From a virus, in IMG/VR virus record IMGVR_UViG_3300017755_005244, positions 1 through 21,615 of that record: a DNA stretch of 21,615 nt. One strand, written 5' to 3'. The notes beneath the pieces were generated by a model. It was not told the origin of the DNA. It ran no database searches and worked only from the letters and a program-made list of their open reading frames with translations. Below are positions 2,901 to 20,118 of the stretch, one piece after another. The position numbers and the translations under genes were made by a program. Within the stretch, counting starts at the first letter, position 1; each line of letters opens with the position of its first letter.

Positions 2901-3377
2901 ATGAAAAAAACAAAGAACAAAGCGGTAAATGTAAGGAAACAACTTAAAGTCAAACTGGAAAATACTGCGACTAGGTACAAAAACGCCAAAGGTTTCAGAC
3001 CAACAGAACAACAAGCATACCAATGGTTCAGGTACATCAACAGGGCATTATTCAACAGCAGATTACCAATGGTTGACATACAGATAAAGAAATTACACAA
3101 AGACTGGGGTAGGTGTGTGGTCAATTGGGACAATCGAAAAACACCCAAAGGCAGATTCAACCAAAAAATAATTCCTTATCATATCAAATTAGATTACTAC
3201 ATTGAATTACACTGTAAGTTTCCTACTTGGAAAGACTTCATTGAGACTCTAGCACATGAGATGGTGCATCTGTATCAAATGACTTGGTTAAAAGATCCTT
3301 ACTCCAACCACAACAAGAACTTCTTTGCGTGGAGAAACAAATTTAAAATGTCAGGTTTAGGCCTTACTAGGTGCTAA
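2901..3377 (+). CDS. SprT-like zinc metalloprotease-fold protein
   Basis: This 158-residue protein carries HEMVH at residues 119-123 (two zinc ligands and the catalytic glutamate). A later H137 lies in HNKNFFAWRNKF, the position and setting of the third ligand in SprT/Spartan proteins. The N-terminal 30 residues are very basic and fit DNA binding. Cellular SprT-family proteases such as Spartan degrade proteins crosslinked to DNA; the role in phage is not established. Possible roles are clearing host or phage protein from DNA, or processing of a phage protein. It is the only plus-strand gene in the first 12.7 kb. It starts 54 bases from the divergent 452-residue gene, and its last 21 bases overlap the end of the convergent GT42-like gene. 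Only a weak -10-like sequence (around 2870-2875) is seen upstream. Confidence 0.85.
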   Translation: MKKTKNKAVNVRKQLKVKLENTATRYKNAKGFRPTEQQAYQWFRYINRALFNSRLPMVDIQIKKLHKDWGRCVVNWDNRKTPKGRFNQKIIPYHIKLDYYIELHCKFPTWKDFIETLAHEMVHLYQMTWLKDPYSNHNKNFFAWRNKFKMSGLGLTRC

Positions 3378-4112
3378 TATTTTTTCAAATTCAGCGTAAC
3401 TAATCACCTTACTGTTTCCCAGGTCTGTTCCTGTCTGCAAATAGTTTAGATATTCGGGTGGATTGTCATGCACCACTGTGTAGTTGACGTATGGTCTCAT
3501 CTTTAACATGTCTCTGAATTGCTTTAACCAACCTTCGAATATCTTATCGTCATTACGTTCTCCATAACAGGCTGTGTCCTGATATATGTTGTTGAGTTGA
3601 TCTTTTCCGTACTCTCTGAAGTCGTAACCTAAAAGGTAAATGTTTTTGTGCCCGTGAACGCCTGCTGTCCAAAAAGCCGCATTGCCTGAAATCCAGTGTG
3701 GATTTTTTGGTATAAGATTAATCATGCCCTTGCTTTGTTTCCTATTAACTTCAAGTGATGGCCCGTAGTGTACAGTCTTCAATCCTACTTCGTCTTCCAC
3801 CATCTGCATTGACATCTTTGTGTCAACAGAGAATATAAAATCTGGCATGAAATCTCTGTACAATGCATTACAGCCATAGGTTTGTCCTGTTGCTTTAAGT
3901 TTATTGAGGTCAAAATCTTTACGTGACGGACCGTTACCTATGCAGTATGCGTTGCCTCGAGGCACTGCCTTTACTTTGTCCTCATAGAATTGTATGTCTT
4001 GTATACGCTGGCCTTTACGTATTGTCGTGTTAACAACCACGTCCTCACCTGTGTATGGTTGCCATTCTATTGGTTGTACCTCTTGGTTACGTCCTATATT
4101 AATTGTTTTCAT
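3357..4112 (-). CDS. GT42/DUF115-like putative glycosyltransferase
   Basis: The 251-residue product has the nucleotide-binding signature IGNGPSRKDFDLNKL at about residues 58-72. It is followed by GCNALYRDFMPDFIFSVD (80-97) and later by SGNAAFWTAG with LLGYDF (about 142-165). The GNGPS turn, the conserved Asn before an aromatic patch and the late GxDF strand are shared by GT42 sialyltransferases (CstII-like) and DUF115/MAF-type proteins that handle nonulosonic acids. The first 50 residues precede this domain and are unrecognised. It is the last gene of the large minus-strand glycan operon. Its first 14 bases overlap the upstream oxygenase and its end overlaps the convergent SprT gene. The acceptor and sugar cannot be told from sequence; a role unrelated to nonulosonic acid is possible. 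Confidence 0.65.
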   Translation of the reverse strand: MKTINIGRNQEVQPIEWQPYTGEDVVVNTTIRKGQRIQDIQFYEDKVKAVPRGNAYCIGNGPSRKDFDLNKLKATGQTYGCNALYRDFMPDFIFSVDTKMSMQMVEDEVGLKTVHYGPSLEVNRKQSKGMINLIPKNPHWISGNAAFWTAGVHGHKNIYLLGYDFREYGKDQLNNIYQDTACYGERNDDKIFEGWLKQFRDMLKMRPYVNYTVVHDNPPEYLNYLQTGTDLGNSKVISYAEFEKILAPSKA

Positions 4113-4602
4113 TGTCTACCTCGAAATTTAAATTGAAAACTGCTCTGTATCTCTTGTCTGTACAGGTGGTTCCAGTGTGTTGTACATTACCGTCAAACAA
4201 TACTAATCTGTTTTCTACTGACTCTATTATATCTCCATTTTCAAATTTTGTATAGCCGTTATTTGTATTAAGATATAATATTGCAGTCTTAACTTTGCTG
4301 TCCGGTTCTGGTAAGTCGGTGTGTAGTCCGTGTTCTATTATTTTTTCAGTCCTTTGTAGCAAATTGAATTTTGCACGTAATATTTTTTTGAATCCAAGGA
4401 GTTCTTTGAATATGTCCAGTCCCCCTAAAGTGTAACTACTCGTGAATGTATCGTCTTTATATATGAGGTGTGTAAATTGTATGTGTCCGTCGTCAGGTAC
4501 TGTTACACCGTCGTTAATGTACCATGGAAAATTTGTACCAAGCACTATAGTTTTCAAGTCTTCGAGGTCGTCTTTGTTGAGAAAATCGTCGATTATTTTC
4601 AT
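4099..4602 (-). CDS. 2OG-Fe(II) oxygenase (prolyl-4-hydroxylase-like)
   Basis: At 167 residues this fits the small 2-oxoglutarate/Fe(II) oxygenases common in marine T4-like phages. The iron ligands appear as H94-x-D96 (HTD) and H142 (QHTG). R153, in YRAVFNLNF, takes the 2OG-binding position. The spacing between the HxD and the distal His is normal, so the enzyme should be active. Such enzymes hydroxylate proteins, sugars or lipids; the substrate here is unknown. The start overlaps the stop of the upstream KpsS/C-like gene as ATGA (4599-4602), which implies coupled translation. Its place inside a glycan operon suggests modification of a sugar or of a glycosylated protein. Confidence 0.84.
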   Translation of the reverse strand: MKIIDDFLNKDDLEDLKTIVLGTNFPWYINDGVTVPDDGHIQFTHLIYKDDTFTSSYTLGGLDIFKELLGFKKILRAKFNLLQRTEKIIEHGLHTDLPEPDSKVKTAILYLNTNNGYTKFENGDIIESVENRLVLFDGNVQHTGTTCTDKRYRAVFNLNFEVDNENN

Positions 4603-5471
4603 TTCAAATATTTCTCCAGTAATCTAGCCTTTATCCTCGCCCATGGCAGACCTTGTTCTATCTCGTCTTCAAACCATTCTGTGTATGCTAGTTGATTAGT
4701 CCAAGTCAATCTGTTTGGCATGGCTGGTGTATTGATCTCTGCTAATTTGATATTACCCACATCGTGGCATAGGCTTGATTCGGAAACGAACACAGGTATT
4801 CCTCTCATTACAGCCTCCATGGCCGGATTGCTAGAATGGTTTACAACTGCCCAAGTCCTCTCGAGTGTTGCCTTAAAATCTGTGTCGTCGTAAGTCCTGT
4901 AATCTCTTTTTGGTAGTCTAACTTTTACGTTCTTGAATTTATTCTCATCGAATGTGATTACATTACGAGGATGTGGTCTCACCAGTATGGGTCTTGTGGT
5001 GTACTTACGGATTTCTGCAATCTGTTGTTCAATCCACGATGACATCCTAGGTAAACCTTTCCATTGCTCTGATGCGTCATGTTGTCCGCATATCACAATT
5101 AGTTCTCCTGTTGGATTCCATGGCCTTAACTCGTGTTTGAATAAAGGCCAGCGTTTATCGTCGAACTCCTGATTTGCAAAGTCGGCATCTCTGTTTATAC
5201 CGTTGATACCTATCTTGAAACTTAGATTTCTACGAAGACCACCAACTTCAATGACAATTACTGGCTTGCCTGCATTCCTGTATCTATCCCAAACTTCTTT
5301 ATAGCCTTGCATTCTGCCTCTCCATAGCACACTCCATATGACTGCTACGTCACCATTAATTTGTTTATTGACCTGTACGTCCTCTCCGGTTTTTTGCAAT
5401 GACTGTATAAATTTTTTGAAAATTGTTTTACTGTTCTGTGGGCCATGCATTGGCCATACTTCTATCTTCAT
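4599..5471 (-). CDS. KpsS/KpsC-like capsule polysaccharide family protein, copy A
   Basis: This 290-residue protein has the GT-B type pattern of capsule biosynthesis KpsC/KpsS-like transferases. RPHPRN lies at about residues 165-170. A C-terminal donor-site block at about 207-228 reads WAVVNHSSNPAMEAVMRGIP. Its tail shows the same arrangement as three other proteins in the window: a short TWTNQLAYTEW helix followed by an EDEIEQG turn. KpsC and KpsS add Kdo to capsule lipid anchors; here the sugar is not predictable. It overlaps the oxygenase start by four bases (ATGA) and begins one base after the stop of the upstream DAD-motif transferase. A GGA about 14 bases before the ATG is the only Shine-Dalgarno-like element. 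Other copies are at 7984-8964, 8954-9769 and 13432-14244. Confidence 0.74.
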   Translation of the reverse strand: MKIEVWPMHGPQNSKTIFKKFIQSLQKTGEDVQVNKQINGDVAVIWSVLWRGRMQGYKEVWDRYRNAGKPVIVIEVGGLRRNLSFKIGINGINRDADFANQEFDDKRWPLFKHELRPWNPTGELIVICGQHDASEQWKGLPRMSSWIEQQIAEIRKYTTRPILVRPHPRNVITFDENKFKNVKVRLPKRDYRTYDDTDFKATLERTWAVVNHSSNPAMEAVMRGIPVFVSESSLCHDVGNIKLAEINTPAMPNRLTWTNQLAYTEWFEDEIEQGLPWARIKARLLEKYLK

Positions 5472-5472
5472 T

Positions 5473-6339
5473 TTAAATTTTTTTCCAGTAGTCTAGTTCT
5501 CTGATATCTTGCCCGGCTCCTTTGAAATCGTTGGATTTACTTTTTCCCTCTGACTTCCTGTTGCCCTTGAAGTGATCCATGTATAGGCCAAGTTCACTGT
5601 TTATAAACACGTGATGTCCTTTGACACCTTTCCAACGTCCTATGTCGTTAACCTTGACATTTCTTTCTTTTTGATACAGTTTTGATAGATGCCACAGAGT
5701 AGAGCAATCAGTCCACCCGTCTCGCAATTTAAACACAGTGTCGTTGATGTACATATCTTCCCAGTCTATGGTGTAGTTTTGTATTTCTGGATGTTTAAGA
5801 TTGTAACCAACAAATCCACATTCTGGATCTTTGCCGCCGTCGCCTAGGTCTGGATTTGTACGTCCTAGGTAGGTCAACATTGTATCTTGTGGTAATATTT
5901 CAAGTAAGAAGTCTTTTGGCATTGGCCTAAATGAATATGTGTCTGCATCTAACCAGATGATATAATCATATCCCGGAGATGATTTCAAAGCATGAGTCAC
6001 ACAAAAGACTTTGTTTGCAAATCTAACAGCATTCCATTGGTATGAACCCTTGGCGGGCATAGGACCTACTCTGCGAACACCGTTGGGTATTTCTTCAATT
6101 TCTCCGTTTGCAACAGGATCATCTTTGTATTTGTTTTTGAATTTCAACAGTTCAGGTTGCACTTCATGTACATCATACCATTCAACCCTTGGATGTTCAA
6201 ATACATCACTTGGTTGTGCTTCATGATACACTGCAACTTGTACGTCATCTGGCCAGTGCTTCAGAACACTGTCCACTGCACGTTTGGCATACTCGTTCCA
6301 AGTTCCTGGTTTGTATGACGTAAGTACTTTTATCTTCAT
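5473..6339 (-). CDS. GT-A fold glycosyltransferase with DAD motif, copy A
   Basis: This is a putative metal-dependent nucleotide-sugar transferase of 288 residues. IIWLDADTYSFRP places the DAD metal-binding motif at about 131-133, and HVFINSELG with DHFKG (about 243-259) supplies a possible late metal-ligand histidine. An in-frame ATG exists upstream at 6396, inside asnB. I chose 6339 because the paralogue at 10758-11648 begins with the same MKIKV(L/I)TSYKPGTW. The two proteins share long blocks such as NGVRR, DTMLTYLGR and WKGVKGHHVF, so they arose by duplication. The gap to asnB is 16 bases, with no clear Shine-Dalgarno. The exact GT family is uncertain; it resembles GT34/GT77-like phage proteins more than GT2. 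Confidence 0.82.
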   Translation of the reverse strand: MKIKVLTSYKPGTWNEYAKRAVDSVLKHWPDDVQVAVYHEAQPSDVFEHPRVEWYDVHEVQPELLKFKNKYKDDPVANGEIEEIPNGVRRVGPMPAKGSYQWNAVRFANKVFCVTHALKSSPGYDYIIWLDADTYSFRPMPKDFLLEILPQDTMLTYLGRTNPDLGDGGKDPECGFVGYNLKHPEIQNYTIDWEDMYINDTVFKLRDGWTDCSTLWHLSKLYQKERNVKVNDIGRWKGVKGHHVFINSELGLYMDHFKGNRKSEGKSKSNDFKGAGQDIRELDYWKKI

Positions 6340-6355
6340 AATATGGGTATTTAAT

Positions 6356-7984
6356 CTACTCCACCATGTTATATTTTTTAATCCAGTCAGCCACAATCAT
6401 TGTTGGAATACTTGCCTTGCCCGACTGTTTCCACCAATGTTGTAACGGCACAGTCCATCCTGTCTTCATCTTGTCAACGATTATATCTGGCAACAATCCT
6501 TTGTATGCAATCTTAGTTAGAAGTTTAGTATCACTCTTTGTTTCTCCTATTTTCTCGTCACTGTGGATATCCATGCAGTACTGCATGAAAGTTTTTGTCG
6601 CCAAAGGAAAACGACCTTCCATACTGTAAGCCATTCCATACTTGTCGTTCCTCATTAAAAATTCTTCAGGAACCTGTGCAACGCAATCTAGAGCCATATA
6701 TGACCCTATAGGGTCAGCCGGATTCCATAAGTCGTCTGGATAACATTTTAATAATTCATCACGTAGTTTTGCTTTGTCATACACTTTGATTGGTCTCTTT
6801 ATACGGTTGATCCATTTATCTATAATGTCTGACCAACTGTTAAATTGTTCCTTTCTTAATTTCCAATATTTTGGATAGCCACCCAATACCTCGTCCCCCA
6901 TGTCTCCGGCCATTGTTACCACGATTCCGTTATCATGTAACACTTTATTAGTATAACAATACATTGATAGACTTGGATTGTACACAGGTTGCTCAATGTA
7001 ATATATAGAATCATCCCAGTATTGTTTCGCAATTTCTGGTGTAATAAGCACCTCGGTGTGCTTGAAGTTGTTCACGTCTGCCAAGACCTTGGCACAGTCG
7101 GCGTCCTCATTATGATCACCGTCCTTTGGGTGAACGTAATTTGGTTCCATCCTGTTTGTGAAAGTGTTTGCATCACCTAAAACGTTCTTTAGTTCATACG
7201 CTACTAGACTTGAATCAAGACCACCACTCAGGAACACACCAATTTTTCTCCTGCCTATACTGGCCATTTTTATAGACTTTCGTGCTATCATTCTAAATTC
7301 TTCAGCATCAAATTTTTTATTTGAATTTGGTTTTATGAATATTCTTTTTGTTTTTACTATTTTCTTGTTTGCTAGATCATATACTATAGTCTCGCCTGCA
7401 AGTAATTTTTTTATTCCTGTAAAAAAAGTATTGCGTAGTGGATTGATACCAGTTGTGGTCATACAACCTACTGCAAGTTCGTCCTGCTTCCTGCTCCCAG
7501 GAACTTTATCTAACATTCCTTTTATCTCAGATCCAAATACCAATCCTTCTTTGATCAAAGCGTAGTAGACAGGTTTCACACCCGCATGATCCCTACTCAG
7601 AGTAAGTGTGTTCTTATCTACTTCGTAGTAGGCAAAACCATGCATTGAATCTATTTCATCAATAAAGGATAAGCCAAAATTGTCAAGTCCCCATGCAAGT
7701 AGTTCTGTATCACAACCTGATGTATCTGTAAATTCTTTGTATTTGTCCTTAAGGTCATAGTAGTTGAATATTTCTCCGTTGTAAACTAGTATGTTTCCTT
7801 TGGGTGTTGTCCATGGCTGTGTTGCATCACCTGGCTCGCCCATGATACTCAACAAGTTATGTCCTAGAGTGATTTTTTCATTATGCCAGATGCTTGAACC
7901 ATCAGGTCCTCTATGCTTACACATATCTATGAACTGTTTTATAAATGTTGGATTATGTTCGGTTATACCGTATATGCCACACAT
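6356..7984 (-). CDS. asnB: AsnB-type glutamine-dependent amidotransferase (asparagine synthetase family)
   Basis: A complete 542-residue class II amidotransferase. Cys2 is exposed after Met removal (MCGIYG) and is the glutaminase nucleophile. HRGPDG (24-29), NGE (69-71) and GCDTE (90-94) bind glutamine. The synthetase half has the PP-loop SGGLDSS (253-259) for ATP and a later AGDMGDEVLGGY segment. Length matches E. coli AsnB (554). Free-asparagine synthesis is possible, but relatives in O-antigen and capsule clusters (for example WbpS in Pseudomonas) are assigned to amidating uronic acid carboxyls. Its position between a sugar transferase and KpsS/C-like genes favours that reading. It joins the upstream gene by a TAATG overlap at 7984, with AGGA about eight bases before the start. 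Confidence 0.88.
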   Translation of the reverse strand: MCGIYGITEHNPTFIKQFIDMCKHRGPDGSSIWHNEKITLGHNLLSIMGEPGDATQPWTTPKGNILVYNGEIFNYYDLKDKYKEFTDTSGCDTELLAWGLDNFGLSFIDEIDSMHGFAYYEVDKNTLTLSRDHAGVKPVYYALIKEGLVFGSEIKGMLDKVPGSRKQDELAVGCMTTTGINPLRNTFFTGIKKLLAGETIVYDLANKKIVKTKRIFIKPNSNKKFDAEEFRMIARKSIKMASIGRRKIGVFLSGGLDSSLVAYELKNVLGDANTFTNRMEPNYVHPKDGDHNEDADCAKVLADVNNFKHTEVLITPEIAKQYWDDSIYYIEQPVYNPSLSMYCYTNKVLHDNGIVVTMAGDMGDEVLGGYPKYWKLRKEQFNSWSDIIDKWINRIKRPIKVYDKAKLRDELLKCYPDDLWNPADPIGSYMALDCVAQVPEEFLMRNDKYGMAYSMEGRFPLATKTFMQYCMDIHSDEKIGETKSDTKLLTKIAYKGLLPDIIVDKMKTGWTVPLQHWWKQSGKASIPTMIVADWIKKYNMVE

Positions 7985-8964
7985 TACATTCCTAACCTGT
8001 CTTTGAATCTCTTGAACACTGTGCCATCTCTAATTTCTTTTTCGCTCCACAACTTGTAACCTAGATCGTAGAGCCATTGTGTCCTGTCTGGATACTCTGG
8101 AGTTTCTATGTTGTTCAGATCTTTGTTTGCTACAGGCCAACTCAATGCTAGATCCGAGGTGTTGAATGTTGGTATTCCACGCACACATGAATCTACACCC
8201 GCAGTTGAATTATGGGTGACTACAGCGTGACAATTGGATATCGCTTCTTGATAATTGAATCTGTAATATTTTTTCTCGTCTCCGTTAAAATATTTTTGTC
8301 CTATTACAACTTCTACATCCTCAGAAAATTCTGCCATTCTATCCTCAATGTGTACAACGTGGTTAGGATGAGGCCTAACAATAAATTTCCTATCTGTGAT
8401 TGGTCTTAATTTTTCATAAACCTTGTTGAACCATTCTATAGGATCAAGTTCGTTCATGCTCCAGTTGTCTTTTGGTTGTAGCACAAACAGTATGGGATCT
8501 TCCTGATTTGATTTTCTCCATGGTTCATTTTTGATATTCCATCTTGCTTTTGCGGCCTCCCATCTATCAGGCGGACTGTTATCAGATAGAAAGTCTCCAT
8601 TGTTCATTGGCGAAAACAACGCAACTCTCCAATGATGCTTTGGCCCGTGTACGTTACCAAAACTAGAAAGCAACCCGCCATCAAACGTTATTATCTTTAT
8701 GCCTTTTTTCTTTGCACGTTCTACTAGGTCTCGCCTACGACCTTTTGTGTGATGCATCTGGTTGGTACCTCCGTAACCAAACATGCACCCTATTGGATGT
8801 GTTGGTTCCATTTCGTCTTTGGTCCACTCTCCAGTTTTTGTTTCGTTTACCATGATAGGTTCATCACCACATGCCCTTATTCCTTCTGCCATGTACTGTA
8901 ATAGATCCCAACTGGCGCCTCGACGTCTGTCCTTTACTGTTCTTCTAAATATTTCAACTTTCAT
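7984..8964 (-). CDS. KpsS/KpsC-like capsule polysaccharide family protein, copy B
   Basis: The longest of the four KpsS/C-like proteins in the window (326 residues). FIVRPHP lies at about 194-200, and the donor-site block VVTHNSTAGVDSCVRGIP at about 248-265. The tail (WLYDLGYKLWSEKEIRDG) matches the tails of the other copies. The N-terminal part is unlike the shorter copies and includes a glycine-rich GYGGTNQMHH turn near residue 64. The start at 8964 is well supported by GGAGGA at 8976-8971, six bases before the ATG. That ribosome site lies inside the last codons of the overlapping upstream copy C. It probably transfers an acidic or otherwise unusual sugar to a growing glycan; substrate unknown. 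Confidence 0.76.
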   Translation of the reverse strand: MKVEIFRRTVKDRRRGASWDLLQYMAEGIRACGDEPIMVNETKTGEWTKDEMEPTHPIGCMFGYGGTNQMHHTKGRRRDLVERAKKKGIKIITFDGGLLSSFGNVHGPKHHWRVALFSPMNNGDFLSDNSPPDRWEAAKARWNIKNEPWRKSNQEDPILFVLQPKDNWSMNELDPIEWFNKVYEKLRPITDRKFIVRPHPNHVVHIEDRMAEFSEDVEVVIGQKYFNGDEKKYYRFNYQEAISNCHAVVTHNSTAGVDSCVRGIPTFNTSDLALSWPVANKDLNNIETPEYPDRTQWLYDLGYKLWSEKEIRDGTVFKRFKDRLGM

Positions 8965-9769
8965 CTAGTATCCTCCATGCATATCCACTCTTAATTTCTT
9001 CTGCTGTAAATTGACCGTATGCCATTGAATAGTATAACGGTTCTCTATCAACGTAGCAAGGCTTTTCTATTTTGGAAAAATCTGTCTCTGAGATAGGTGC
9101 ACACGCATTATGCACATCAGTGAAGCAAGGAATACCTCTTGTGGTGGCCTCTAATGAAATGTTGGAGTTGTAGGTAACCACTGCGTATGCGTTCTCCCAG
9201 TCTATTGGACCACTAGGTTTGCTGTTGTCTTTACCTGTAACAATCATTCCACCATTGGCATCACGTCCCATTATAGGATTGTAACCTTTGTTTTTAATAA
9301 TAATAGGTCTATCAGTATTAGCCTTCAAGGTAGCAATAGTTTTATCCAACCAGTCATTGACACCAAAGAAATCCTTCATTGCATTAGAGGGCGGACACAC
9401 AATAATGTTCCTGCCGTCTTTCTTCCATGGGTGTATTGGCCACGGAAATGACTGTTTGAAACGATCATCTGGTCGGTCCTCTTGCCAGTTCTTTAGATGA
9501 TTGTTCTTTACAATTTTTACATAATATGGACTATTTCTTGTTTCTCCCCAGTAAGGTCTATCCATGTAATAAAAATCTATTTTATTTTTCTCCGCCCATC
9601 TGTAAACGAGGTGTGTGCCACGTAGCACGCCAAACATTACTGCTTTTGTACAATCGGTTTTGTCTGTAATTTCAGTAGGTTTAAGTTTTGTAGAGCCAGG
9701 CAAACCCTGTACAGCCCAGTCAACATATTTTTCTGTAAGTGCTCTATTGGTCGAACTAACGTAAATCAT
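8954..9769 (-). CDS. KpsS/KpsC-like capsule polysaccharide family protein, copy C
   Basis: A 271-residue relative of the other KpsS/C-like proteins. The block VVTYNSNISLEATTRGIP (197-214) matches the donor-site pattern, and the tail PLYYSMAYGQFTAEEIKSG is nearly that of copy D at 13432-14244. Copies C and D also share a D.PY.G stretch near residue 70 and a VCPPSN/VCPSSA strand near 125-130, so they are the closest pair. The RPHP motif of copies A and B is replaced by a KNKGYNP segment, so substrate or activity may differ. The first 14 bases overlap the end of gmd and the last 11 overlap copy B. No clear Shine-Dalgarno is seen; translation is probably coupled to gmd. Confidence 0.72.
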   Translation of the reverse strand: MIYVSSTNRALTEKYVDWAVQGLPGSTKLKPTEITDKTDCTKAVMFGVLRGTHLVYRWAEKNKIDFYYMDRPYWGETRNSPYYVKIVKNNHLKNWQEDRPDDRFKQSFPWPIHPWKKDGRNIIVCPPSNAMKDFFGVNDWLDKTIATLKANTDRPIIIKNKGYNPIMGRDANGGMIVTGKDNSKPSGPIDWENAYAVVTYNSNISLEATTRGIPCFTDVHNACAPISETDFSKIEKPCYVDREPLYYSMAYGQFTAEEIKSGYAWRILDES

Positions 9770-10739: not shown

Positions 10740-10757
10740 TTAATGTAATTATGTCTG

Positions 10758-12727: not shown

Positions 12728-12729
12728 GT

Positions 12730-12785
12730 TTGCATTTTGTGAATAACTACACTATAATTATAGTATTATGCCTACCAGTTTGTTC
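12730..12785. promoter_or_regulatory. Divergent promoter region with palindromic bidirectional -10 box
   Basis: The 40-base gap between divergent glycan genes contains a perfect 14-base palindrome, ACTATAATTATAGT, at 12751-12764. It presents TATAAT on both strands (plus 12753-12758, minus 12762-12757). On the plus strand TTGCAT lies 17 bases upstream (12730-12735). On the minus strand TGAACA (4 of 6 matches to the -35 consensus) lies 18 bases upstream, inside the plus-strand gene. The plus-strand start site would fall about 2-4 bases before the ATG at 12768, leaving essentially no leader. The palindrome could also be an operator. These are sequence matches only. Confidence 0.5.
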
Positions 12786-13457: not shown

Positions 13458-14244
13458 AAATAAGAACAGCAAGGCGTGGGAAGTGTTCAACGGTGTTGAG
13501 AACTCCTGGCCAGCACAAATAACAAAGTTAGACAATGCAGTTGAAACTGATCCAAATAGTAACAGTATGTTTTGGGGATTTGTTGGTAACAATAGAGAAA
13601 TGGTCAAGAAGTTAGAAGCACGTAACCATAATTACTGGTTCACAGACACGCCTTACTTTGGAAGATTTGATAACAATAATCTGAAGCCGGACAATCATTA
13701 TTGGCGTGTGTGCAAGAATGCCATTCACGTTCCCTACATAAAAAATTGCAAGGCCGATAGATTCGAAAAGTTTGGAATGAAGATCAAAGCACCAAACTTC
13801 GCTGGCAAGTATATTTTAGTTTGTCCCAGTAGTGCAGGTATACACAATTACTTAGATAGACCAAATTGGACAAACGAGACCATTGAACAGATCAAAAGAT
13901 ACACAGACAGACCAATCCGACTTCGACACAAGCCTAGGGGCAGGGGTACATCAGGACCAAGTGAGGCCACAGTACCCCTATCCGAGGATCTTAAGGAAGC
14001 CTGGTGTGTGGTTACAAGTTGTAGCATAGCGGCCGTGGAGGCCATGTGTGAGGGAATACCTGTGTTCTGTGATAATAAAAGTTTTGCTGTTGACGTTGGT
14101 AATGTTGAATTGTCAGACATAGAGAATCCATACTACGGTGGGCCTGAACCATGGCTGTACAGTTTAGCCTATCAACAATTCACTCCTGAGGAGTTAAGTA
14201 ACGGTACAGCAGTTGAGATACTAATGGACAAAGGGATATTATGA
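13432..14244 (+). CDS. KpsS/KpsC-like capsule polysaccharide family protein, copy D
   Basis: The fourth KpsS/C-like protein (270 residues) and the only one on the plus strand. The donor-site block is CVVTSCSIAAVEAMCEGIP at about 192-210. The tail PWLYSLAYQQFTPEELSNG and the VCPSSAG strand near 130-136 match copy C (8954-9769) best. RPHP is replaced by RLRHKPRG at about 163-170, and the Asn of the N-S pair in the other copies is a Cys (SCS). Whether this changes activity is not known. It begins within the end of the SGNH-like gene and ends in an ATGA overlap with the FkbM methyltransferase (14241-14244). Confidence 0.72.
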   Translation: MLTIYAPFKNKNSKAWEVFNGVENSWPAQITKLDNAVETDPNSNSMFWGFVGNNREMVKKLEARNHNYWFTDTPYFGRFDNNNLKPDNHYWRVCKNAIHVPYIKNCKADRFEKFGMKIKAPNFAGKYILVCPSSAGIHNYLDRPNWTNETIEQIKRYTDRPIRLRHKPRGRGTSGPSEATVPLSEDLKEAWCVVTSCSIAAVEAMCEGIPVFCDNKSFAVDVGNVELSDIENPYYGGPEPWLYSLAYQQFTPEELSNGTAVEILMDKGIL

Positions 14245-14867
14245 AGATAGAAAAAGTAAATGGCTTTTGGGTGCCCTCGAATGATATACACATAGAGCAA
14301 TGGAAGGCCGGACAGCCTTTTACCCAAAACAAATGCCTACTTAAATTTTTAGATTACTGTAAAAGTCAAAGTAAAAAATTCAAAACAGTTATTGATATAG
14401 GTGCTTGGTGCGGAACATGGGCAAAAGCGATGGAACCATATGCAAAAAAAATTGTTGCTTTCGAACCTGACACGACACATTTTGAATGCCTGCAACGTAA
14501 TTGTACAGTAAATTGTGATCCGAGAAAAGAAGCAGTTGGATCAGAATTGAAAGGCATATCATTGACGGAGGATGATTTCACCCAAGCAAAAAGAATAGAC
14601 AAAGACGGCCCTATAAGGATGATTACTCTAGATCATTTGAATTACCAAGATGTGGATTTGATAAAAATAGATGTTGAAGGATATGAGATGGAGGTACTAA
14701 AAGGTGCCGAAAAAACTTTAGAAAGTGTTCAATATCTTATGATTGAATTAAACAACGCCACAAAAAAATATGGCAGTAGTAATATTGAGATTGAAAAGCA
14801 CTTGAGTTCTCTTGGCTATAAAGTTCTAATAGAGCATTGGCCAGATAAAGTTTTCTTTCGTCCATGA
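14241..14867 (+). CDS. FkbM-family SAM-dependent methyltransferase, plus-strand copy
   Basis: A 208-residue methyltransferase. Motif I is VIDIGAWCGTW (50-60), followed by the acidic E75 in VAFEPD that binds the SAM ribose. The FkbM signature DLIKIDVEGYEMEVLKGAE lies at about 139-157. FkbM-like enzymes O-methylate sugars and polyketides, and several sit in phage and bacterial surface-glycan clusters. The start overlaps the previous stop as ATGA and has AAGGGA about seven bases upstream, the clearest ribosome site in this block. It is separated from the next gene by 19 bases. A second FkbM protein lies on the other strand at 18189-18734; the two are not close copies. Confidence 0.87.
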   Translation: MKIEKVNGFWVPSNDIHIEQWKAGQPFTQNKCLLKFLDYCKSQSKKFKTVIDIGAWCGTWAKAMEPYAKKIVAFEPDTTHFECLQRNCTVNCDPRKEAVGSELKGISLTEDDFTQAKRIDKDGPIRMITLDHLNYQDVDLIKIDVEGYEMEVLKGAEKTLESVQYLMIELNNATKKYGSSNIEIEKHLSSLGYKVLIEHWPDKVFFRP

Positions 14868-14886
14868 TACAAATTAAATAACGTAA

Positions 14887-15891
14887 ATGAAAATTTTTAT
14901 AACAGGAGTCGCAGGATTTTTAGGATCACACCTAGCAGACTTAATGATATCGCAAGGACATACTGTCGCTGGTAATGATAACATGATTGGTGGCTACATG
15001 GACAACGTTCCACAAAATGTTGAATTTCATCAAGTGGATTGTTGTGATCTAGAAAACATGACCAAAGCAATGGAAGGCTGTGATATTGTGTACCATACGG
15101 CCGCTACTGCATACGAAGGACTTTCTGTTTTCTCTCCTGTACTTGTAACAAGGAATATTTTTGAAGCATCTGTTACAACTATTACAGCGGCAATAAGAAA
15201 CAAAGTCAAACGTATTGTGTATTGTTCTAGCATGGCGAGATACGGTCATCATGACGAATTACCATACAAAGAAACTTACGAGTGCCGCCCCCAAGATCCA
15301 TACGGTATCGCAAAGAAAGCCGGAGAAGATGTGCTTAGAAATTTATGTGAAACGCACGGAGTTGAGTATGTAATCGCTGTGCCACACAACATTGTTGGGC
15401 CAAGACAGAAGTATGATGATCCGTTTAGGAACGTTATGTCTATTATGTTGAACAGAATGTTACAGGGTAAGCAACCAATCATATACGGAGATGGTGAACA
15501 GCAAAGATGTTTCAGTTACATAGACGATTGTTTGTATTGTTTAAATGCACTTGCGTTTCAAGACAACGTCGTTGGTGAAGTTATTAACATTGGTCCAGAC
15601 GAAGAACCTATAACAATCAATGAGTTAGCGGAGGCCTGTGCAAATGAAACAGGACTGAACCTAGATCCAATACATCACAAAGATAGGCCTAAGGAAGTTA
15701 AACTAGCAGTCTGTTCGTCTAACAAAGCGAGAGAGTTTTTAGGATATAAGACAGCAACTAATATGAGACAGTCGGTCAAAAAGACCGCCGAGTACATAAG
15801 GACTAGGGGTACCAAAAAGTTTCAGTATCACTTGCCTTTAGAAATTGTTAATGATATTACACCAGATACCTGGAAGAATAAGTTAATATGA
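14887..15891 (+). CDS. NAD-dependent sugar epimerase/dehydratase (extended SDR)
   Basis: A 334-residue nucleotide-sugar enzyme. GVAGFLG (7-13) binds NAD, SSM (113-115) holds the active-site serine, and Y138/K142 in YGIAK form the catalytic pair. The PHNIVGP and GDGEQQRCFSYIDD segments are typical of UDP-hexose 4-epimerases and related dehydratases. It may epimerise a UDP-sugar, or reduce or epimerise a keto sugar made by GMD; sequence alone does not choose. It has no signal peptide and should act in the cytoplasm. A 19-base gap with no clear Shine-Dalgarno precedes the ATG. The stop overlaps the next start as ATGA (15888-15891). Confidence 0.86.
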   Translation: MKIFITGVAGFLGSHLADLMISQGHTVAGNDNMIGGYMDNVPQNVEFHQVDCCDLENMTKAMEGCDIVYHTAATAYEGLSVFSPVLVTRNIFEASVTTITAAIRNKVKRIVYCSSMARYGHHDELPYKETYECRPQDPYGIAKKAGEDVLRNLCETHGVEYVIAVPHNIVGPRQKYDDPFRNVMSIMLNRMLQGKQPIIYGDGEQQRCFSYIDDCLYCLNALAFQDNVVGEVINIGPDEEPITINELAEACANETGLNLDPIHHKDRPKEVKLAVCSSNKAREFLGYKTATNMRQSVKKTAEYIRTRGTKKFQYHLPLEIVNDITPDTWKNKLI

Positions 15892-16592
15892 TTTCTTTTT
15901 GTTGCCCATCGAGAGGTAGGCCTGAACTTGCAAAAAGGTTAATAGATACAGCAACGCAGACACAAAAAGGCGACACCGAGTTTCTTTTTTATCTTAACGA
16001 CGACGATGAAAAGTTAGAACAGTATAAAGATCTGCTAGACGAAAAACATTATACTGTTGGGCCTAATCAATCAACTTGCTACAGTTGGAACTTAATGGCC
16101 GATAAGGCCTCGCACGATATAGTGATGCTTATGGGCGACGATGTACAGGTACAAACAAAAGGATGGGATCAACTTATTGCAGACGAATTTCTCAGGTACG
16201 AGGACAGGATTTTAATGGTAGTGCCGAGCGATGGCAGGGACAAAGGTACTAAAGAGCACGGTGATGAGACAATGCTCTGGCCAGATGACCCATTACCGGC
16301 GGCTCACTTTGCCGTGCATAAGAATTGGACTAATACGTTAGGCTATCTTGCTCCACCGTTCTTTTGGCATTGGCACGTGGACACGTACACACAGAAAGTT
16401 GCACGTAAATTAAACAGATGTCTTTATTTGCCAACAGTGACGTTTAAAGCCAAAAAAATTATTGACGACAACGCAGGGAAACAAATACGTAAAAATCTTA
16501 ATATCAATGAACGAGATAATTTTGTTTGGACTAAAGTAAAACAGAGATGTTTACAAGCAGACGTCCTAGCGTTGCAAGAAAAAATAAATTAA
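15888..16592 (+). CDS. GT2-like (GT-A fold) glycosyltransferase
   Basis: A 234-residue protein beginning MISFCCPSRGRPELAKRLID, the usual first strand and turn of GT-A nucleotide-sugar transferases. NDDDEK (38-42) and MLMGDDVQV (80-88) provide the acidic residues; the second is the probable DxD-equivalent metal site. WHWHVDTY (160-167) may supply a late histidine. The protein is short and has no membrane segment, so it is likely soluble or peripheral. It is last in the plus-strand block, coupled by ATGA to the SDR. Its TAA lies within TTAA (16589-16592), shared with the stop of the convergent oxygenase gene. Donor and acceptor unknown. Confidence 0.72.
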   Translation: MISFCCPSRGRPELAKRLIDTATQTQKGDTEFLFYLNDDDEKLEQYKDLLDEKHYTVGPNQSTCYSWNLMADKASHDIVMLMGDDVQVQTKGWDQLIADEFLRYEDRILMVVPSDGRDKGTKEHGDETMLWPDDPLPAAHFAVHKNWTNTLGYLAPPFFWHWHVDTYTQKVARKLNRCLYLPTVTFKAKKIIDDNAGKQIRKNLNINERDNFVWTKVKQRCLQADVLALQEKIN

Positions 16593-17191
16593 CCTGTATA
16601 AAAACAGTGCTTGTTTTCCTTCATAAGAAAGAAGTTTAGAGTGATCCTCTGTTCGGTTTGGTCACTTTCATAACTGTGCCAAGTCTTACTTTGCTGTCCG
16701 CAAAATATAAAAGTACTGTTAGGTTTCCATTCTGCTTCTTTCACAAAACTATTTGGATTGTCCTCTGTGTACATCTTAGTGCCTACATTGTTTTCAGGTG
16801 TAACGTATGTCACACTGCTCCATATCTTCTCTAGGCCTTCTTGGTGTATATGAAACTTGTAAGGCAACGGTGGTGTTATTGATATGTGTGCATTTACGGC
16901 CAAGTTATTGAACCAACGATGTGCAGGATATTTTTCACAAAGTGCTTTTGCATTGATTAAAATATTTCTGCTTATGTCTTCTATCTGCTCGTAGAACGAG
17001 ATGTTGTAGTCTTGAAAATCTTTTGGATAAAGTGCAACAAGTTTGTCTTTAGGCACATCTAAGTTTTCGCATTCCTTACGTAATGTATCAAAGTCTTGCT
17101 TTGGTAATGTATCATTGATAATCTGATGAGACCATGGCAAACTTATTATTTCACTTTCGAGACAGTTGTTTAAAAAATATTCGCCTATCAT
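16589..17191 (-). CDS. 2OG-Fe(II) oxygenase-like protein
   Basis: A 200-residue protein with features of the double-stranded beta-helix oxygenases. H116-x-E118 (HQE) could be the HxD/E iron pair, with H172 (TWHSY) as the distal ligand and R182 (QRITLNF) as the 2OG-binding residue. H114, two residues earlier, is an alternative ligand. HxE in place of HxD occurs in the superfamily but is less common, so activity is likely rather than certain. It is not a close copy of the oxygenase at 4099-4602. AGGAAG at 17203-17198 gives a good ribosome site. The start overlaps the radical SAM stop as ATGA, so the two enzymes may act on the same molecule. Confidence 0.68.
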   Translation of the reverse strand: MIGEYFLNNCLESEIISLPWSHQIINDTLPKQDFDTLRKECENLDVPKDKLVALYPKDFQDYNISFYEQIEDISRNILINAKALCEKYPAHRWFNNLAVNAHISITPPLPYKFHIHQEGLEKIWSSVTYVTPENNVGTKMYTEDNPNSFVKEAEWKPNSTFIFCGQQSKTWHSYESDQTEQRITLNFFLMKENKHCFYTG

Positions 17192-18192
17192 TGCATACTT
17201 CCTATTCTACCAATTACACCTTGTTGACGTGAAAGTAATTTTGATTGCATTGGCTGTGTCCAATGTCCTTTGAACTTGCCTCTCGAACAGGTATTGCATA
17301 TCAAATTTTTCTTACTATCTGAATATTCTTTAGCGTATATTATTGCGTGTTCCTTTTGTAAGTTGTGCCATGCTTTCTCAATTCCAATTTCAAAAACGTT
17401 TCCATAGTTTGTTTTTCCTTCTGCATCATCACAACACAACACGGTTTTCCCATCAACTAATATTTCCATTTGCCTAAGTACACGTCCACCACCCATTGCA
17501 CAGCCTTGCATGTAGTTGTTGTTATCTATTACTGCATCATAAGGCGTGGTCCAATCTCCATCGCCATCGCCCATTCTATTCTCTACCCAGTTAGTCTTTG
17601 ACTTCACTTTGCCAAGTATAACATTCTGGTACTCAGCAAGTGTTTCACTACTTGCGGTCGCTGATTGTTTTTTATGTTTGATTCCTATTCTTATTCTTTT
17701 TGAAAGTTCTGGATAATTTTCTTTTACAAATTTCAAACTGTTTAGCGTTTTATCTTTTTTAATTTTCATAAAGTCCCAAAGTTCTTCTGCTGTGTGACCG
17801 ATGACACTCATATGGATGTTGCCTAAAAGGTGAATGTACTTGTTTAAAATTTCACACTGCTTTTTGGTAAACGATACCCCGTTTGTGCAAAGTCCAATTT
17901 TGATCTTGTAATGATCACAAAGTTCCATTATGTATTCTAGATTAGGTTGCACCAACGGATCACTGTATCTCCATGGACTAATCGCACAGGTATAATCTTT
18001 GACCCTGTGCTTTTTTATCAATGAGCCGTAGTCATGCAACAGTGTTCCTAACTGTTCCTGTGTCATCTGTTTGCCATGATATGTTTTGTCTTCACTCAAT
18101 GTGGTGTAAGGACAACAGAAGCATTTTGCGTTACATAAGTTTATAGGCTCGAACGCTATCGATGTGGGTAGTGGTATAGGTTGGTACATCAT
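17188..18192 (-). CDS. Radical SAM/SPASM domain enzyme
   Basis: A 334-residue radical SAM protein. The [4Fe-4S] cluster motif CxxxCxxC is C20, C24 and C27 (in LCNAKCFCC), right after an N-terminal strand. The C-terminal SPASM-like region has C231, the pair C253/C254, and C299/C302, which could hold one or two auxiliary clusters; YGNVFEIG is a typical SPASM turn. These enzymes modify peptides, sugars or proteins by hydrogen abstraction. No short precursor peptide is evident nearby. The context of sugar enzymes suggests an epimerisation, dehydrogenation or deoxygenation of a glycan, as inference. It is coupled by ATGA to genes on both sides (17188-17191 and 18189-18192). Confidence 0.86.
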   Translation of the reverse strand: MMYQPIPLPTSIAFEPINLCNAKCFCCPYTTLSEDKTYHGKQMTQEQLGTLLHDYGSLIKKHRVKDYTCAISPWRYSDPLVQPNLEYIMELCDHYKIKIGLCTNGVSFTKKQCEILNKYIHLLGNIHMSVIGHTAEELWDFMKIKKDKTLNSLKFVKENYPELSKRIRIGIKHKKQSATASSETLAEYQNVILGKVKSKTNWVENRMGDGDGDWTTPYDAVIDNNNYMQGCAMGGGRVLRQMEILVDGKTVLCCDDAEGKTNYGNVFEIGIEKAWHNLQKEHAIIYAKEYSDSKKNLICNTCSRGKFKGHWTQPMQSKLLSRQQGVIGRIGSMQ

Positions 18193-18734
18193 TCTTTTAC
18201 CATAAGATAATCACTTTTGAACATGTCATCTATGCCTTTTAATTTATACCCCCAACTTTGTAACAATTCTACAGCGTCTGTGTTACCTTTATTTTGTTCC
18301 ACAACTATGACAGGAAAATATTTTTTGATAGTTTTTTCACTTCCTCTGACTGCTCTCAATTCGTAACCTTCGATGTCATATTTAATAAAACCAATATTTT
18401 GATAGTCAAAACTATCAATTGTTTTGATAGGAACTTTAATATTGCCATTGTCTTTGATTCTACCAACCTTGTTACTGCTAGTAAATGAGTGACCATTTTG
18501 TTCACCGATTCCACAGACAGTGTATGTGAACTTTGTAAAGTCTTTTACATTTTTTTGGAATTCTTTTATTTTGTTTCTAAAATCAAAAGCAAATATGTGT
18601 TCAAAATCCTGTTCCATTTGTGCTGAGAATCCGCCTTCTCTACAACCAACATCAATCCCAACAGTCCCTTTTGAAATGTAAGGTTTGGCCATTGCGTACG
18701 TCTCTCTCCAGTTTCTTAGATGTTGTTCGTCCAT
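18189..18734 (-). CDS. FkbM-family SAM-dependent methyltransferase, minus-strand copy
   Basis: A 181-residue methyltransferase. Motif I is GIDVGCREGGF (26-36), and the FkbM signature FIKYDIEGYELRAVRGSE lies at 116-133. A longer frame starts at 18764. I place the start at 18734 because its ATG then overlaps the preceding gene's TAA as TAATG, a junction used repeatedly here, and the extra ten residues would overlap that gene by 31 bases. It presumably O-methylates a sugar, or a group on the product of the radical SAM and oxygenase enzymes next to it. It ends in ATGA with the radical SAM gene. Confidence 0.84.
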   Translation of the reverse strand: MDEQHLRNWRETYAMAKPYISKGTVGIDVGCREGGFSAQMEQDFEHIFAFDFRNKIKEFQKNVKDFTKFTYTVCGIGEQNGHSFTSSNKVGRIKDNGNIKVPIKTIDSFDYQNIGFIKYDIEGYELRAVRGSEKTIKKYFPVIVVEQNKGNTDAVELLQSWGYKLKGIDDMFKSDYLMVKE

Positions 18735-19000
18735 TATAAATTTTTTTCGTATTCGGTTAGCCACGCTTCTAAATCAGGACCATTCAAAGGTTTTTCAGTT
18801 AGCCATTCTTGCACACCCTGACTTGATGCCCACTTGCCACTTGGCATCTGCCAAGAATTGTGCTTTGGTTCTTCCACATGTTTGCCAACCATGTATCTCC
18901 TCGTTCCCGGACCATATGGCTTTATTTCCGATTGGACCACGATGAGCCCTAGTCTGTCTATCCAGTCCAACATTCGTTCTTTGTGATTTTTTTTCGTCAT
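18734..19000 (-). CDS. Small protein of unknown function (88 aa)
   Basis: I do not recognise a family. The 88-residue product is tryptophan-rich and basic at the N-terminus. Two WLTE motifs near the C-terminus (EWLTEKP and AWLTEYEK) fall in likely short helices. There is no signal peptide, membrane segment or cysteine motif. It sits between the 142-residue unknown gene (15-base gap) and the FkbM methyltransferase, to which it is joined by TAATG at 18734. Its position in a tightly packed operon and the coupled junction support it as a real gene. Confidence 0.68.
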   Translation of the reverse strand: MTKKNHKERMLDWIDRLGLIVVQSEIKPYGPGTRRYMVGKHVEEPKHNSWQMPSGKWASSQGVQEWLTEKPLNGPDLEAWLTEYEKNL

Positions 19001-19015
19001 AACTGCAAACAGTAG

Positions 19016-19444
19016 TTATCGGAATTTACGGAGCAGTCTTTGCCATTGATCGTTTGTCATATCTATTTGAATAAGTGGATGACGTATATATTTTCTATTT
19101 TTTTGTATAAATTTTATATTTTTTGATTTCGTTACGAGAAATGTATTTGGTAGATATGCTAGTTTCTTGTCATTCACACACACGTAGGACCGTGTGTTAT
19201 CTGCACGTTCTTTGAAGAACCACAAACACATTATTTCTTTGTTAAAATCTATTTCAGAAAAATCATCTTTGAATTCAAAACCGATTCTGTACAGTGTATC
19301 AAATTCTTGCCAGGTCTTGTGATCAAAGTTATTTTGATTTTCATATAGTTTGTCATATTCTTTTGTGTCAAAAATATCCTGTGCATAGATATGTGTTATA
19401 GGATCTCTGAAGTAATGATTTGGTTTAAGTTTATCCCAGTTCAT
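19016..19444 (-). CDS. Unknown protein (142 aa) downstream of the GT8-like gene
   Basis: Not recognised. The protein is rich in aromatic, Asp and Lys residues and starts MNWDKLKPNHYF. A longer frame opens at 19480, but the ATG at 19444 forms TAATG with the stop of the upstream transferase and is preferred. The C-terminal half (residues about 95-135) alternates hydrophobic and charged residues like a beta-sandwich. It could be a degenerate cupin or oxygenase relative, but no HxD or distal His-Arg pair is visible, so no function is assigned. No membrane segment or signal peptide. Confidence 0.7.
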   Translation of the reverse strand: MNWDKLKPNHYFRDPITHIYAQDIFDTKEYDKLYENQNNFDHKTWQEFDTLYRIGFEFKDDFSEIDFNKEIMCLWFFKERADNTRSYVCVNDKKLAYLPNTFLVTKSKNIKFIQKNRKYIRHPLIQIDMTNDQWQRLLRKFR

Positions 19445-20118
19445 TATGAGCTGAACAAGTTTATAAGTTCTTTCTTCCAATCATCGCTGTACTCACAATC
19501 TCTGTATCCATCAAACCATGGCCCGCCTTCTGTGTAGTGTAATATTTTTGGTGTGCCATCATTTGGTTCTTTATACCAACCCACAAGCCAATTATATTCT
19601 AATGGCAATAAACCGATTTCATTATCTTCCAACCAACTGAACCTGTGTAGGAATTTTGGTGATTCTTCGTTGAGTAATTCTGGAGTAAGGATTTTGTTCT
19701 TTGGATGTTCACAGTTCCATAGCACCATACTAGACCAATTCTTTCTTGGATACACTGTTTGGGTTTGACCGTCCATTTTAGTTGTCTCTTTTGGTGTGTA
19801 ATCATGTTGTACAACTACAACTGCTTTACTTGGATCGCAATACTTTATCAGTTCATGACTAGGTATTTTCCATAGGAAGTCACAGTCACAGAACACTGCC
19901 CAGCCTTTGAAGTCATTCATATAGGGCACGAAGAACCTAGTGAACGTGAACTCTGTTGATGCCAACTTGTCCACAGGTCTGGTATAGAGTCCTTGGTCTC
20001 GCATTTGTTTTTGCTTGAGGGGGATAACTTCTGCTGACGGGTCTCTTCGCTTGATGCTGTGTTCACATACTTGGTATGCTATGTCTTCTCTGCTGTCGTG
20101 CCCTACGTATATCTTCAT
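19444..20118 (-). CDS. GT8-like glycosyltransferase
   Basis: A 224-residue GT-A enzyme. MKIYVGHDSRED at the start is the nucleotide-sugar binding strand. FCDCDFLW gives the DxD at D78/D80, and ILHYTEGGPWF (192-202) puts H194 at the late metal-ligand position used by GT8-like enzymes. I use 20118 rather than the in-frame ATG at 20154. The 20118 start has AGGAAG at 20127-20122, an ATGA overlap with the HAD gene, and the beta-strand at residue 2. It is the outermost recognisable transferase of the glycan region on this side. Its sugar is unknown. Confidence 0.8.
   Translation of the reverse strand: MKIYVGHDSREDIAYQVCEHSIKRRDPSAEVIPLKQKQMRDQGLYTRPVDKLASTEFTFTRFFVPYMNDFKGWAVFCDCDFLWKIPSHELIKYCDPSKAVVVVQHDYTPKETTKMDGQTQTVYPRKNWSSMVLWNCEHPKNKILTPELLNEESPKFLHRFSWLEDNEIGLLPLEYNWLVGWYKEPNDGTPKILHYTEGGPWFDGYRDCEYSDDWKKELINLFSS

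Follow-up and report, generated by a model that had tools for sequence, protein, structure and literature searches.

Large clusters of lipopolysaccharide (LPS) genes are described for the cyanophages P-SSM2, S-SM2 and S-SSM7 (PMC3037559), and four core putative transferases are described for moraphages (PMC12619734). In the chlorovirus PBCV-1, capsid glycans are reported to be made by mostly soluble, early, virus-encoded transferases, together with a GDP-mannose 4,6-dehydratase (GMD) and a methyltransferase domain, and antigenic variants are reported to arise by transferase mutations (PMC5408694). The locus analysed here occupies most of a complete 21,615-base IMG/VR record (IMGVR_UViG_3300017755_005244, hereafter the window) and is read, with a probability of roughly 0.93, as a polymorphic glycan-assembly island lying between the phage genes uvsY and uvsW. 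In independent contigs it combines a constant set of transferase-type genes with interchangeable decoration alleles, mostly under purifying selection. Read from high to low coordinates, as uvsY and uvsW are transcribed, the gene order is uvsY, an HAD-like gene, about 20 glycan-type genes, an SprT-like gene on the opposite strand, a gene for a 452-residue protein and uvsW (Table 1). A sequence-only reading of the same DNA had proposed that the phage carries a large cassette for making and decorating glycans next to T4-type recombination genes; this was borne out, its open reading frames (ORFs) being found where it had placed them and its gene list proving largely correct. It had set the cassette between uvsW and a group of small phage genes, which holds on the uvsW side, but the genes beyond position 20118 are the HAD-like gene and uvsY, and the cassette is thus bounded by uvsY and uvsW.

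Recurrence of the arrangement was assessed in viral contigs scanned with uvsW, from which the best 80 of at least 600 loci, 92–99% identical to the window uvsW, were kept. A search for uvsY in 36 of these 80 loci found it in 24, three of which are cut at a contig end. The complete intervals analysed number 21, namely the window and 20 contigs recruited by uvsW; the complete interval G008 was not analysed whole, and L102 and L103 are identical in uvsW, so that 20 of the 21 intervals are distinct there. The island fills the gap between uvsY and uvsW in every one of the 21, with interval lengths of about 11–19 kb. Where at least 2 kb was available upstream of uvsW, an island transferase-type gene was present in 39 of 39 loci among the best 80 (in four of which the available sequence has room for the GT42-like gene only), and where at least 5 kb was available, five or more island families were present in 32 of 32. 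A chimeric assembly, which the sequence-only reading had named as one outcome that would overturn it, was ruled out because the same general gene order recurs in 20 other contigs, more than expected by chance.

Gene counts were taken from a six-frame profile count over the 21 islands, which replaced earlier lower bounds in which spurious antisense ORFs had displaced genes. Eleven families besides uvsY were found in all 21 islands: Kps1, Kps2, Kps3, Kps4, DAD, GT61, ST42, the phrog_28018 gene, the HAD-like gene, the SprT-like gene and the gene for the 452-residue protein, the first eight being of transferase type. The predicted structure of Kps1 (pLDDT 90.5) matched the Kdo transferases KpsC, WbbB and KrkA (KpsC, E 3e-8), which it resembles in fold (Z 14.7, root-mean-square deviation 3.9 over 238 residues) and from which it differs in sequence, with 15% identity and no PF05159 match in nine records. 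The Kps fold was assigned by model for Kps1 only, Kps2 to Kps4 being placed by BLAST and alignment. For the DAD1 model (pLDDT 80.3), an alpha-1,3-galactosyltransferase was the leading Foldseek match (E 1e-9), and in a second structure comparison PBCV-1 A064R (Z 14.1) was tied with GT6 and glycogenin (within Z 1); residues D150 and D152 of the DxD-type motif are invariant in DAD. The KpsS/C-like and DAD labels given earlier are thus backed by predicted folds for Kps1 (KpsC/WbbB) and DAD1 (GT-A), and the GT61 label by a Pfam match of 2e-20, although the shared folds predicted for Kps1 and DAD1 do not fix the donor or the acceptor. The nearest solved relatives of the GT61 protein were POMGnT2/EOGT chains (9e-5 to 6e-4), named as protein O-mannose and EGF-domain GlcNAc transferases. 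The GT42-like label survived in weak form, with a best E of 0.013 to CstII chains, over the short stretch 57–85 only, and the phrog_4603 match (0.0025). No support in the libraries searched was obtained for the label "GT8-like" at 19444–20154, where Pfam gave just two matches over 13 members, both at chance level, and no solved relative was found. Sequence searches of solved structures gave nothing useful for the Kps, DAD and phrog_28018 families.

The remaining families vary between islands. Pfam matches upheld the labels of the GMD, SDR, AsnB, SGNH-like, radical SAM and both FkbM genes, the NCBIfam gmd model scoring 401 bits, just below its cut-off of 415; the GT2-like label has a strong PHROG match and a Pfam match below cut-off, and the 2OG labels rest on motifs. 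Further variable families, counted over the 21 islands, are the FkbM-like c19 (8), the 2OG family c20 (6), the sulfotransferase c21 (5; PF00685, 8.6e-11), c24 (4), the FkbM family c26 (4) and c27 (3), rarer alleles including LicD (in L094) and another type of sulfotransferase (in L100). AsnB, radical SAM enzymes, 2OG oxygenases and methyltransferases double as natural-product tailoring enzymes. A small diffusible glycoside or other secondary metabolite released from the infected cell, a product suggested for certain cyanophage clusters that contain 2OG oxygenases and methyltransferases (PMC7824862), would accord with such a repertoire, but the constant core consists of transferases, whereas AsnB, radical SAM and each 2OG family occur in at most 10 of the 21 islands, and this explanation is considered very improbable.

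Exactly one of SDR, c19, c27 or x209 occupies slot A in all 21 islands. AsnB (10 islands) and c21 (5 islands) never occur together, and neither does c20 with GMD or c24; GMD and c24 occur together once, as do c20 and AsnB. The chance probability of zero overlap is 0.043 for AsnB/c21 and 0.010 for SDR/c19, and 0.19–0.25 for the other exclusive pairs tested, which have few members; exclusion among the rarer genes could be chance. The exclusivity and shuffle tests relied on the labels of an initial gene calling, where L088 was classed as "other"; L088 was later rescored as c19. On the uvsW tree, which is poorly resolved (5 of 17 inner branches well supported), the states of slots A, B and C required 8, 8 and 10 changes, values as low or lower being reached in 19, 117 and 72 of 300 shuffles. 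Such little tree signal in the slot states, on so poorly resolved a tree, fits allele exchange.

Some further observations concern these tailoring genes. AsnB is split into two ORFs in L086 (11900–13852) by a frameshift either in the virus or in the assembly. Contig G013 has additional genes of tailoring type near its primase and helicase genes, downstream of uvsW (L105 637–8720); they comprise FkbM-like and other methyltransferase-like ORFs, identified by sequence, and radical SAM/SPASM, identified by Pfam. The profile of the window gene at 4099–4602 matches the denV gene of P-SSM2 (98 bits), and both carry the HxD..H..R motif typical of 2OG-Fe(II) oxygenases, as noted together with L214 3094–3642; the name DNA endonuclease V, borne by phrog_274 and by the P-SSM2 gene, looks wrong.

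The island genes are divergent and, for the most part, constrained. Among the 21 intervals, median identity was 97% for uvsY, against 46% for Kps3, 54% for FkbM1, 56% for SGNH and DAD and 60% for GT61, with Kps1 (74%), Kps4 (86%) and SDR (94%) being steadier. Ratios of nonsynonymous to synonymous substitution (dN/dS) were calculated from pairs with dS of 0.1–2.0, dS being near saturation; c21 and 2OGb had no usable pair, and only 2–4 were usable for each of GT61, AsnB, GMD and GT2. The transferases, SDR, GMD and AsnB had medians of 0.02–0.15; those of SGNH and of the 154-residue protein gene were higher, at about 0.30 and about 0.31. Given the low medians, most island genes therefore look like constrained enzymes under purifying selection, not stuffer DNA. 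A stuffer role has been raised for cyanophage LPS clusters (PMC3037559), and passive gene capture between two recombination genes, retained for genome length, would account for the variable length (about 10–20 kb), the gene turnover, the dN/dS near 0.3 of the SGNH and 154-residue genes and the split AsnB of L086; with low medians elsewhere and eleven families in 21 of 21 islands besides uvsY, it is given next to no credence.

Table 1. Features of the window, in order of coordinate, with the basis of each assignment and its occurrence among the 21 complete islands.
Feature	Position	Strand	Basis and remarks	Islands
uvsW-like helicase	20..1486	-	ResIII/DEAD/Helicase_C; phrog_16; left flank, downstream in transcription order	
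452-residue protein, function unassigned	1488..2846	-	before uvsW; promoter upstream in 20/21	21/21
SprT-like metallopeptidase	2901..3377	+	PF10263 1.8e-8	21/21
ST42, GT42/sialyltransferase-like, possible CMP-sugar transferase	3357..4112	-	phrog_4603 sialyltransferase 0.0025	21/21
2OGa, 2OG-Fe(II) oxygenase-like	4099..4602	-	phrog_274 4e-47 (named DNA endonuclease V); HxD..H..R read from sequence	2/21
Kps1, predicted GT-B glycosyltransferase, KpsC/WbbB Kdo-transferase fold	4599..5471	-	predicted structure	21/21
DAD1, predicted GT-A glycosyltransferase, GT6/A064R-like fold	5473..6396	-	predicted structure	DAD family 21/21
AsnB-like amidotransferase, variable slot (alternative: sulfotransferase)	6356..7984	-	PF00733 5e-41; TIGR01536 over cut-off	10/21
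Kps2, Kps1 paralogue	7984..8964	-	BLAST and alignment A1	21/21
Kps3, Kps1 paralogue	8954..9769	-	BLAST and alignment A1	21/21
GMD, GDP-mannose 4,6-dehydratase, variable slot	9756..10739	-	PF16363 6e-117	4/21
DAD2, second DAD glycosyltransferase copy	10758..11648	-	57% identical to DAD1	
GT61 glycosyltransferase	11648..12727	-	PF04577 2.4e-20	21/21
Putative divergent control region	12728..12767	.	GT61-SGNH gap; inverted pair of TATAATTAT (-10-like) elements	
SGNH-like (DUF6071) esterase/acyltransferase	12768..13457	+	PF19547 3e-9	20/21
Kps4, Kps1 paralogue	13432..14244	+	BLAST and alignment A1	21/21
FkbM methyltransferase 1	14241..14867	+	PF05050 1.5e-15	16/21
SDR sugar-nucleotide epimerase/dehydratase, slot A with GT2	14887..15891	+	PF01370 2e-47	9/21
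GT2-like glycosyltransferase, slot A	15888..16592	+	phrog_14945 glycosyltransferase 8e-29; PF00535 0.0021, below cut-off	9/21
2OGb, 2OG-Fe(II) oxygenase-like	16589..17191	-	HxE..H..R invariant in 8/8	8/21
Radical SAM/SPASM enzyme	17188..18192	-	PF13186, PF04055 5e-6; SPASM above, Radical_SAM just below cut-off	3/21
FkbM methyltransferase 2	18189..18764	-	PF05050 7e-12	4/21
88-residue protein, function unassigned	18734..19000	-		3/21
154-residue protein, function unassigned, fast-evolving	19016..19480	-	dN/dS about 0.31	12/21
phrog_28018 protein ("GT8-like" in the sequence-only reading)	19444..20154	-	phrog_28018 (function unassigned) 1e-57	21/21
HAD-like gene (phrog_420), separating uvsY from the glycan genes	20115..20741	-	phrog_420 2.5e-29; PF06941 0.0019, below cut-off	21/21
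uvsY-like recombination mediator	20725..21186	-	phrog_231 1.6e-16; right flank	

Megablast of the window against named phages gave no nucleotide match, and no RNA families or tRNAs were found in it. The nearest named relative of its uvsW was that of Phosso, followed by the PA5oct/Paride type and Atu_ph07, and its uvsY has homologues in Phosso (6e-51) and Paride (2e-48). Contig G013, of the same clade, carries uvsX, ssb, terminase and sheath homologues in addition to the island, and its sheath and terminase point to PA5oct/Paride-type phages and Phosso. Cyanophage or pelagiphage identity was ruled out by these core genes (uvsW of the window; sheath and terminase of G013), and the island appears to be hosted by an uncultured phage lineage distantly related to known jumbo (giant) phages. 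The regions around uvsW in Phosso, Paride and Atu_ph07 match no island profile except uvsY, which in Paride abuts uvsW.

Related islands were also reached through GMD. Among the best 80 GMD loci, four are 92–93% identical to the window GMD and sit in the same kind of island, the next group (71–77% identical) being located in other contigs. When 30 of the 80 were tested for uvsW, matches were obtained in 16 records, one at 92% (G037, which carries a 20-kb version of the island), 13 at 59–65% and two at 30–32%. The sister clade defined by the 59–65% group has a related island, with Kps-, DAD- and phrog_28018-type genes, in 10 of 10 complete uvsY-uvsW intervals; recruitment by GMD biased this sample, yet in three of the ten GMD lies beyond uvsW, on the other side. 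L198 and L199 look near-identical. Of ten further sister-clade ORFs scanned, eight match sugar or methyl-transfer families (a cytidylyltransferase/cupin fusion, UDP-glucose/GDP-mannose dehydrogenase, NTP transferase, DXD transferase, DegT aminotransferase, GT25, GT17 and a methyltransferase). Over both clades, island length is about 10–20 kb. A search of 84,980 cellular genomes with two peptide patterns of the DAD family gave only four contigs, all with a phage island of the same kind. The island contigs L210–L213 are binned in public metagenome-assembled genomes named Verrucomicrobia, Pelagibacter and Pacearchaeota, where they are probably contamination. In a 42.7-kb podovirus record from Manatee Spring (L209), genes resembling DAD and Kps1 are located close to the terminase and to a transferase named tibC.

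Upstream of the 452-residue protein gene and uvsW, the window has a sigma-70-like arrangement at 2871–2898 (TTGACT, 16 nucleotides, TATAAT), and a TTGAC-N-TATAAT promoter precedes the 452-residue protein gene in 20 of the 21 islands. When one mismatch per strand is allowed, the TATAATTAT pair is present in the GT61-SGNH gap of 17 of the 21 islands (the background being 1.2% per 45 nucleotides and strand), suggesting divergent host-type promoters. These are -10-like, unlike the TAAATA found before some structural genes, a contrast weakened by homologous upstream regions having been counted more than once. TAAATA matches in the islands were rejected as promoters, most lying inside genes or at most 9 bases from a start, and in a late-promoter test TATAAATA was absent from the window.

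Among 400 ORFs called in the 21 islands, 386 have no hydrophobic segment; the other 14 are five SDR Rossmann ends, two borderline Kps4 and seven short or antisense-looking ORFs, and no convincing membrane protein was found in these islands. Profiles for an initiating transferase (PF02397) and a flippase (PF13440) matched none of 12 longer, still partial records, although their controls matched; polymerase and ABC families were not searched. As neither membrane proteins nor these initiation and export families were found in that scope, the glycan is probably assembled in the cytoplasm, with either a soluble acceptor or a lipid-linked one of the host, and an autonomous O-antigen or capsule pathway of the Wzx/Wzy or ABC type finds no support in these islands and partial records. 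In sister islands an ORF of about 130 residues recurs on the opposite strand just before Kps1 (L194–L203; L198 10447–10848), and in two of these islands it contains a hydrophobic segment. The sugars could instead be placed on phage DNA as protection against restriction, since some phage glycosyltransferases modify DNA (PMC12619734); the thymidylate synthase/hydroxymethylase family, however, matched none of the 12 partial records, and the AsnB, sulfotransferase, SGNH, FkbM and LicD alleles would fit an oligosaccharide better, making this alternative very improbable. A Tet_JBP search was uninformative, its control having given no match either.

In the mechanism proposed, the island genes would be read early or mid-cycle after infection from host-type promoters, and soluble enzymes would use nucleotide sugars of the host to make a decorated, acidic oligosaccharide in the cytoplasm. 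The Kps and GT42-like enzymes may take CMP-Kdo or CMP-ulosonic acids as donors, and GDP-6-deoxy sugars may serve where GMD is present, with tailoring by methylation, amidation or sulfation, and hydroxylation presumably following the alleles of the strain. The sugar coat, whether on the particle or on the infected cell, is probably particular to each strain. The acceptor may be a virion protein, as in chlorovirus capsid glycans, which would result in a strain-specific virion surface. This acceptor is tentatively and slightly favoured over a host surface glycan because of the parallel with PBCV-1 (soluble, early viral transferases, GMD and a methyltransferase domain). Also counted for it were A064R, a PBCV-1 capsid transferase, as the top-ranked, tied match of DAD, and the protein-glycan transferases among the GT61 relatives.

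A number of points tell against a virion glycan made in this way. A064R shares its rank among the DAD1 fold matches with GT6 and glycogenin. Lipid-linked glycans are the substrates of KpsC/WbbB-type enzymes, and the LPS-core transferases of the host are soluble too, so that a host acceptor is possible. At E 0.1 the PF05159 (KpsC/KpsS) profile matched none of nine records, its control matching 5 of 14 genomes, two of them over the cut-off. A sigma-70-type scan of the window gave 64 matches, against 60.7 in shuffles, and thus no excess. In the sister clade and G037, 4 of 189 ORFs exceed the hydrophobicity limit, including a 133-residue ORF in two near-identical islands that could, judging by its sequence, be a membrane protein, and as the records are fragments an export gene may lie elsewhere in the genome. 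Furthermore, the published accounts of marine phage clusters favour the host O-chain (PMC7029224, PMC7824862).

Remodelling of the host surface is regarded as possible: on the cytoplasmic face, the transferases would extend or decorate a lipid-linked glycan of the host (its LPS core, O-chain or capsule), which host exporters would carry out, with the result that rivals, and the phage's own progeny, no longer adsorb. Published accounts propose the same role for the transferases of pelagimyophages (PMC7029224) and for clusters in jumbo cyanophages (PMC7824862). The predicted KpsC/WbbB fold of Kps1 and the early-type promoters would fit it. Transferase and FkbM genes of this sort are common in bacterial envelope glycan loci. 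However, neither a flippase nor an initiating transferase was found in the 12 partial records, nor a membrane protein in the 21 islands, and the restriction of DAD in cellular genomes to four phage-island contigs reveals no recent cellular donor at that sensitivity. If the glycan is placed on the host, the island would be a candidate locus, unusual in its constancy, by which large phages control superinfection; if on the virion, strain-specific phage sugar coats would be specified by one swappable locus, with a bearing on adsorption, grazing and phage-phage competition. A phage "serotype locus", with recombination genes at its ends, a constant scaffold, decoration alleles shuffled by homologous recombination and differing virion glycans among close relatives, is a rather unlikely extension of the virion reading, but would, if true, give bacteriophages an equivalent of the O-antigen loci of bacteria and of the capsid-glycan variants of chloroviruses.

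Like described phage glycan and LPS clusters, the island consists of adjacent transferase and sugar-nucleotide genes on phage DNA and is polymorphic among close relatives. Its size had been called far larger than usual in T4-like phages, a claim that did not survive comparison with the 15-gene, GMD-containing cluster of P-SSM2 and with the pelagimyophage and jumbo cyanophage regions on record. Large glycan clusters are already published for cyanophages, pelagimyophages and jumbo phages, and the island adds to that kind; its fixed uvsY-uvsW position, constant scaffold and allele slots appear to be undescribed in the literature searched, which spans few subscription journals. The P-SSM2 LPS cluster (AY939844, 193.4–205.5 kb) is of comparable size, its 15 genes including GMD (49.8% identical), epimerases, GT2, GT1, GT11, GT6, GT25 and a dioxygenase, but it adjoins hli genes, and only GMD, the SDR-type epimerases and one FkbM-like gene of the 15 match island profiles. 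The pelagimyophage and jumbo cyanophage regions, as described in PMC7029224 and PMC7824862, are similarly polymorphic and transferase-rich, belong to large marine phages and are read there as superinfection control; they differ in belonging to other phage families and in being hypervariable regions with tail fibres or small clusters. With the capsid glycosylation set of PBCV-1, as reported, the island shares soluble early transferases, GMD, a methyltransferase domain, a counterpart to antigenic variants and the A064R fold, although PBCV-1 is a eukaryotic virus and the likeness is at the fold level. Comparison of gene content with pelagiphages and cyanophages, which the sequence-only reading had proposed, showed six matching genes in Pelagibacter phage Mosig EXVC030M and few in P-SSM2, the location differing in both. 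In Mosig (MT647606, 124.8–130.7 kb), six of eight neighbouring genes tested match island profiles, namely two FkbM-type methyltransferases, a DAD-like gene, a phrog_28018/GT8-named gene (216 bits), a Kps3-like gene and a Kps4-like gene, and a seventh is annotated as a sulfotransferase. The Mosig set differs in being smaller, in lying beside RuvC and ribonucleotide reductase genes rather than between uvsY and uvsW, and in belonging to the Kyanoviridae; with this smaller set of the same families, Mosig is an existing isolate in which the virion and host readings can be distinguished.

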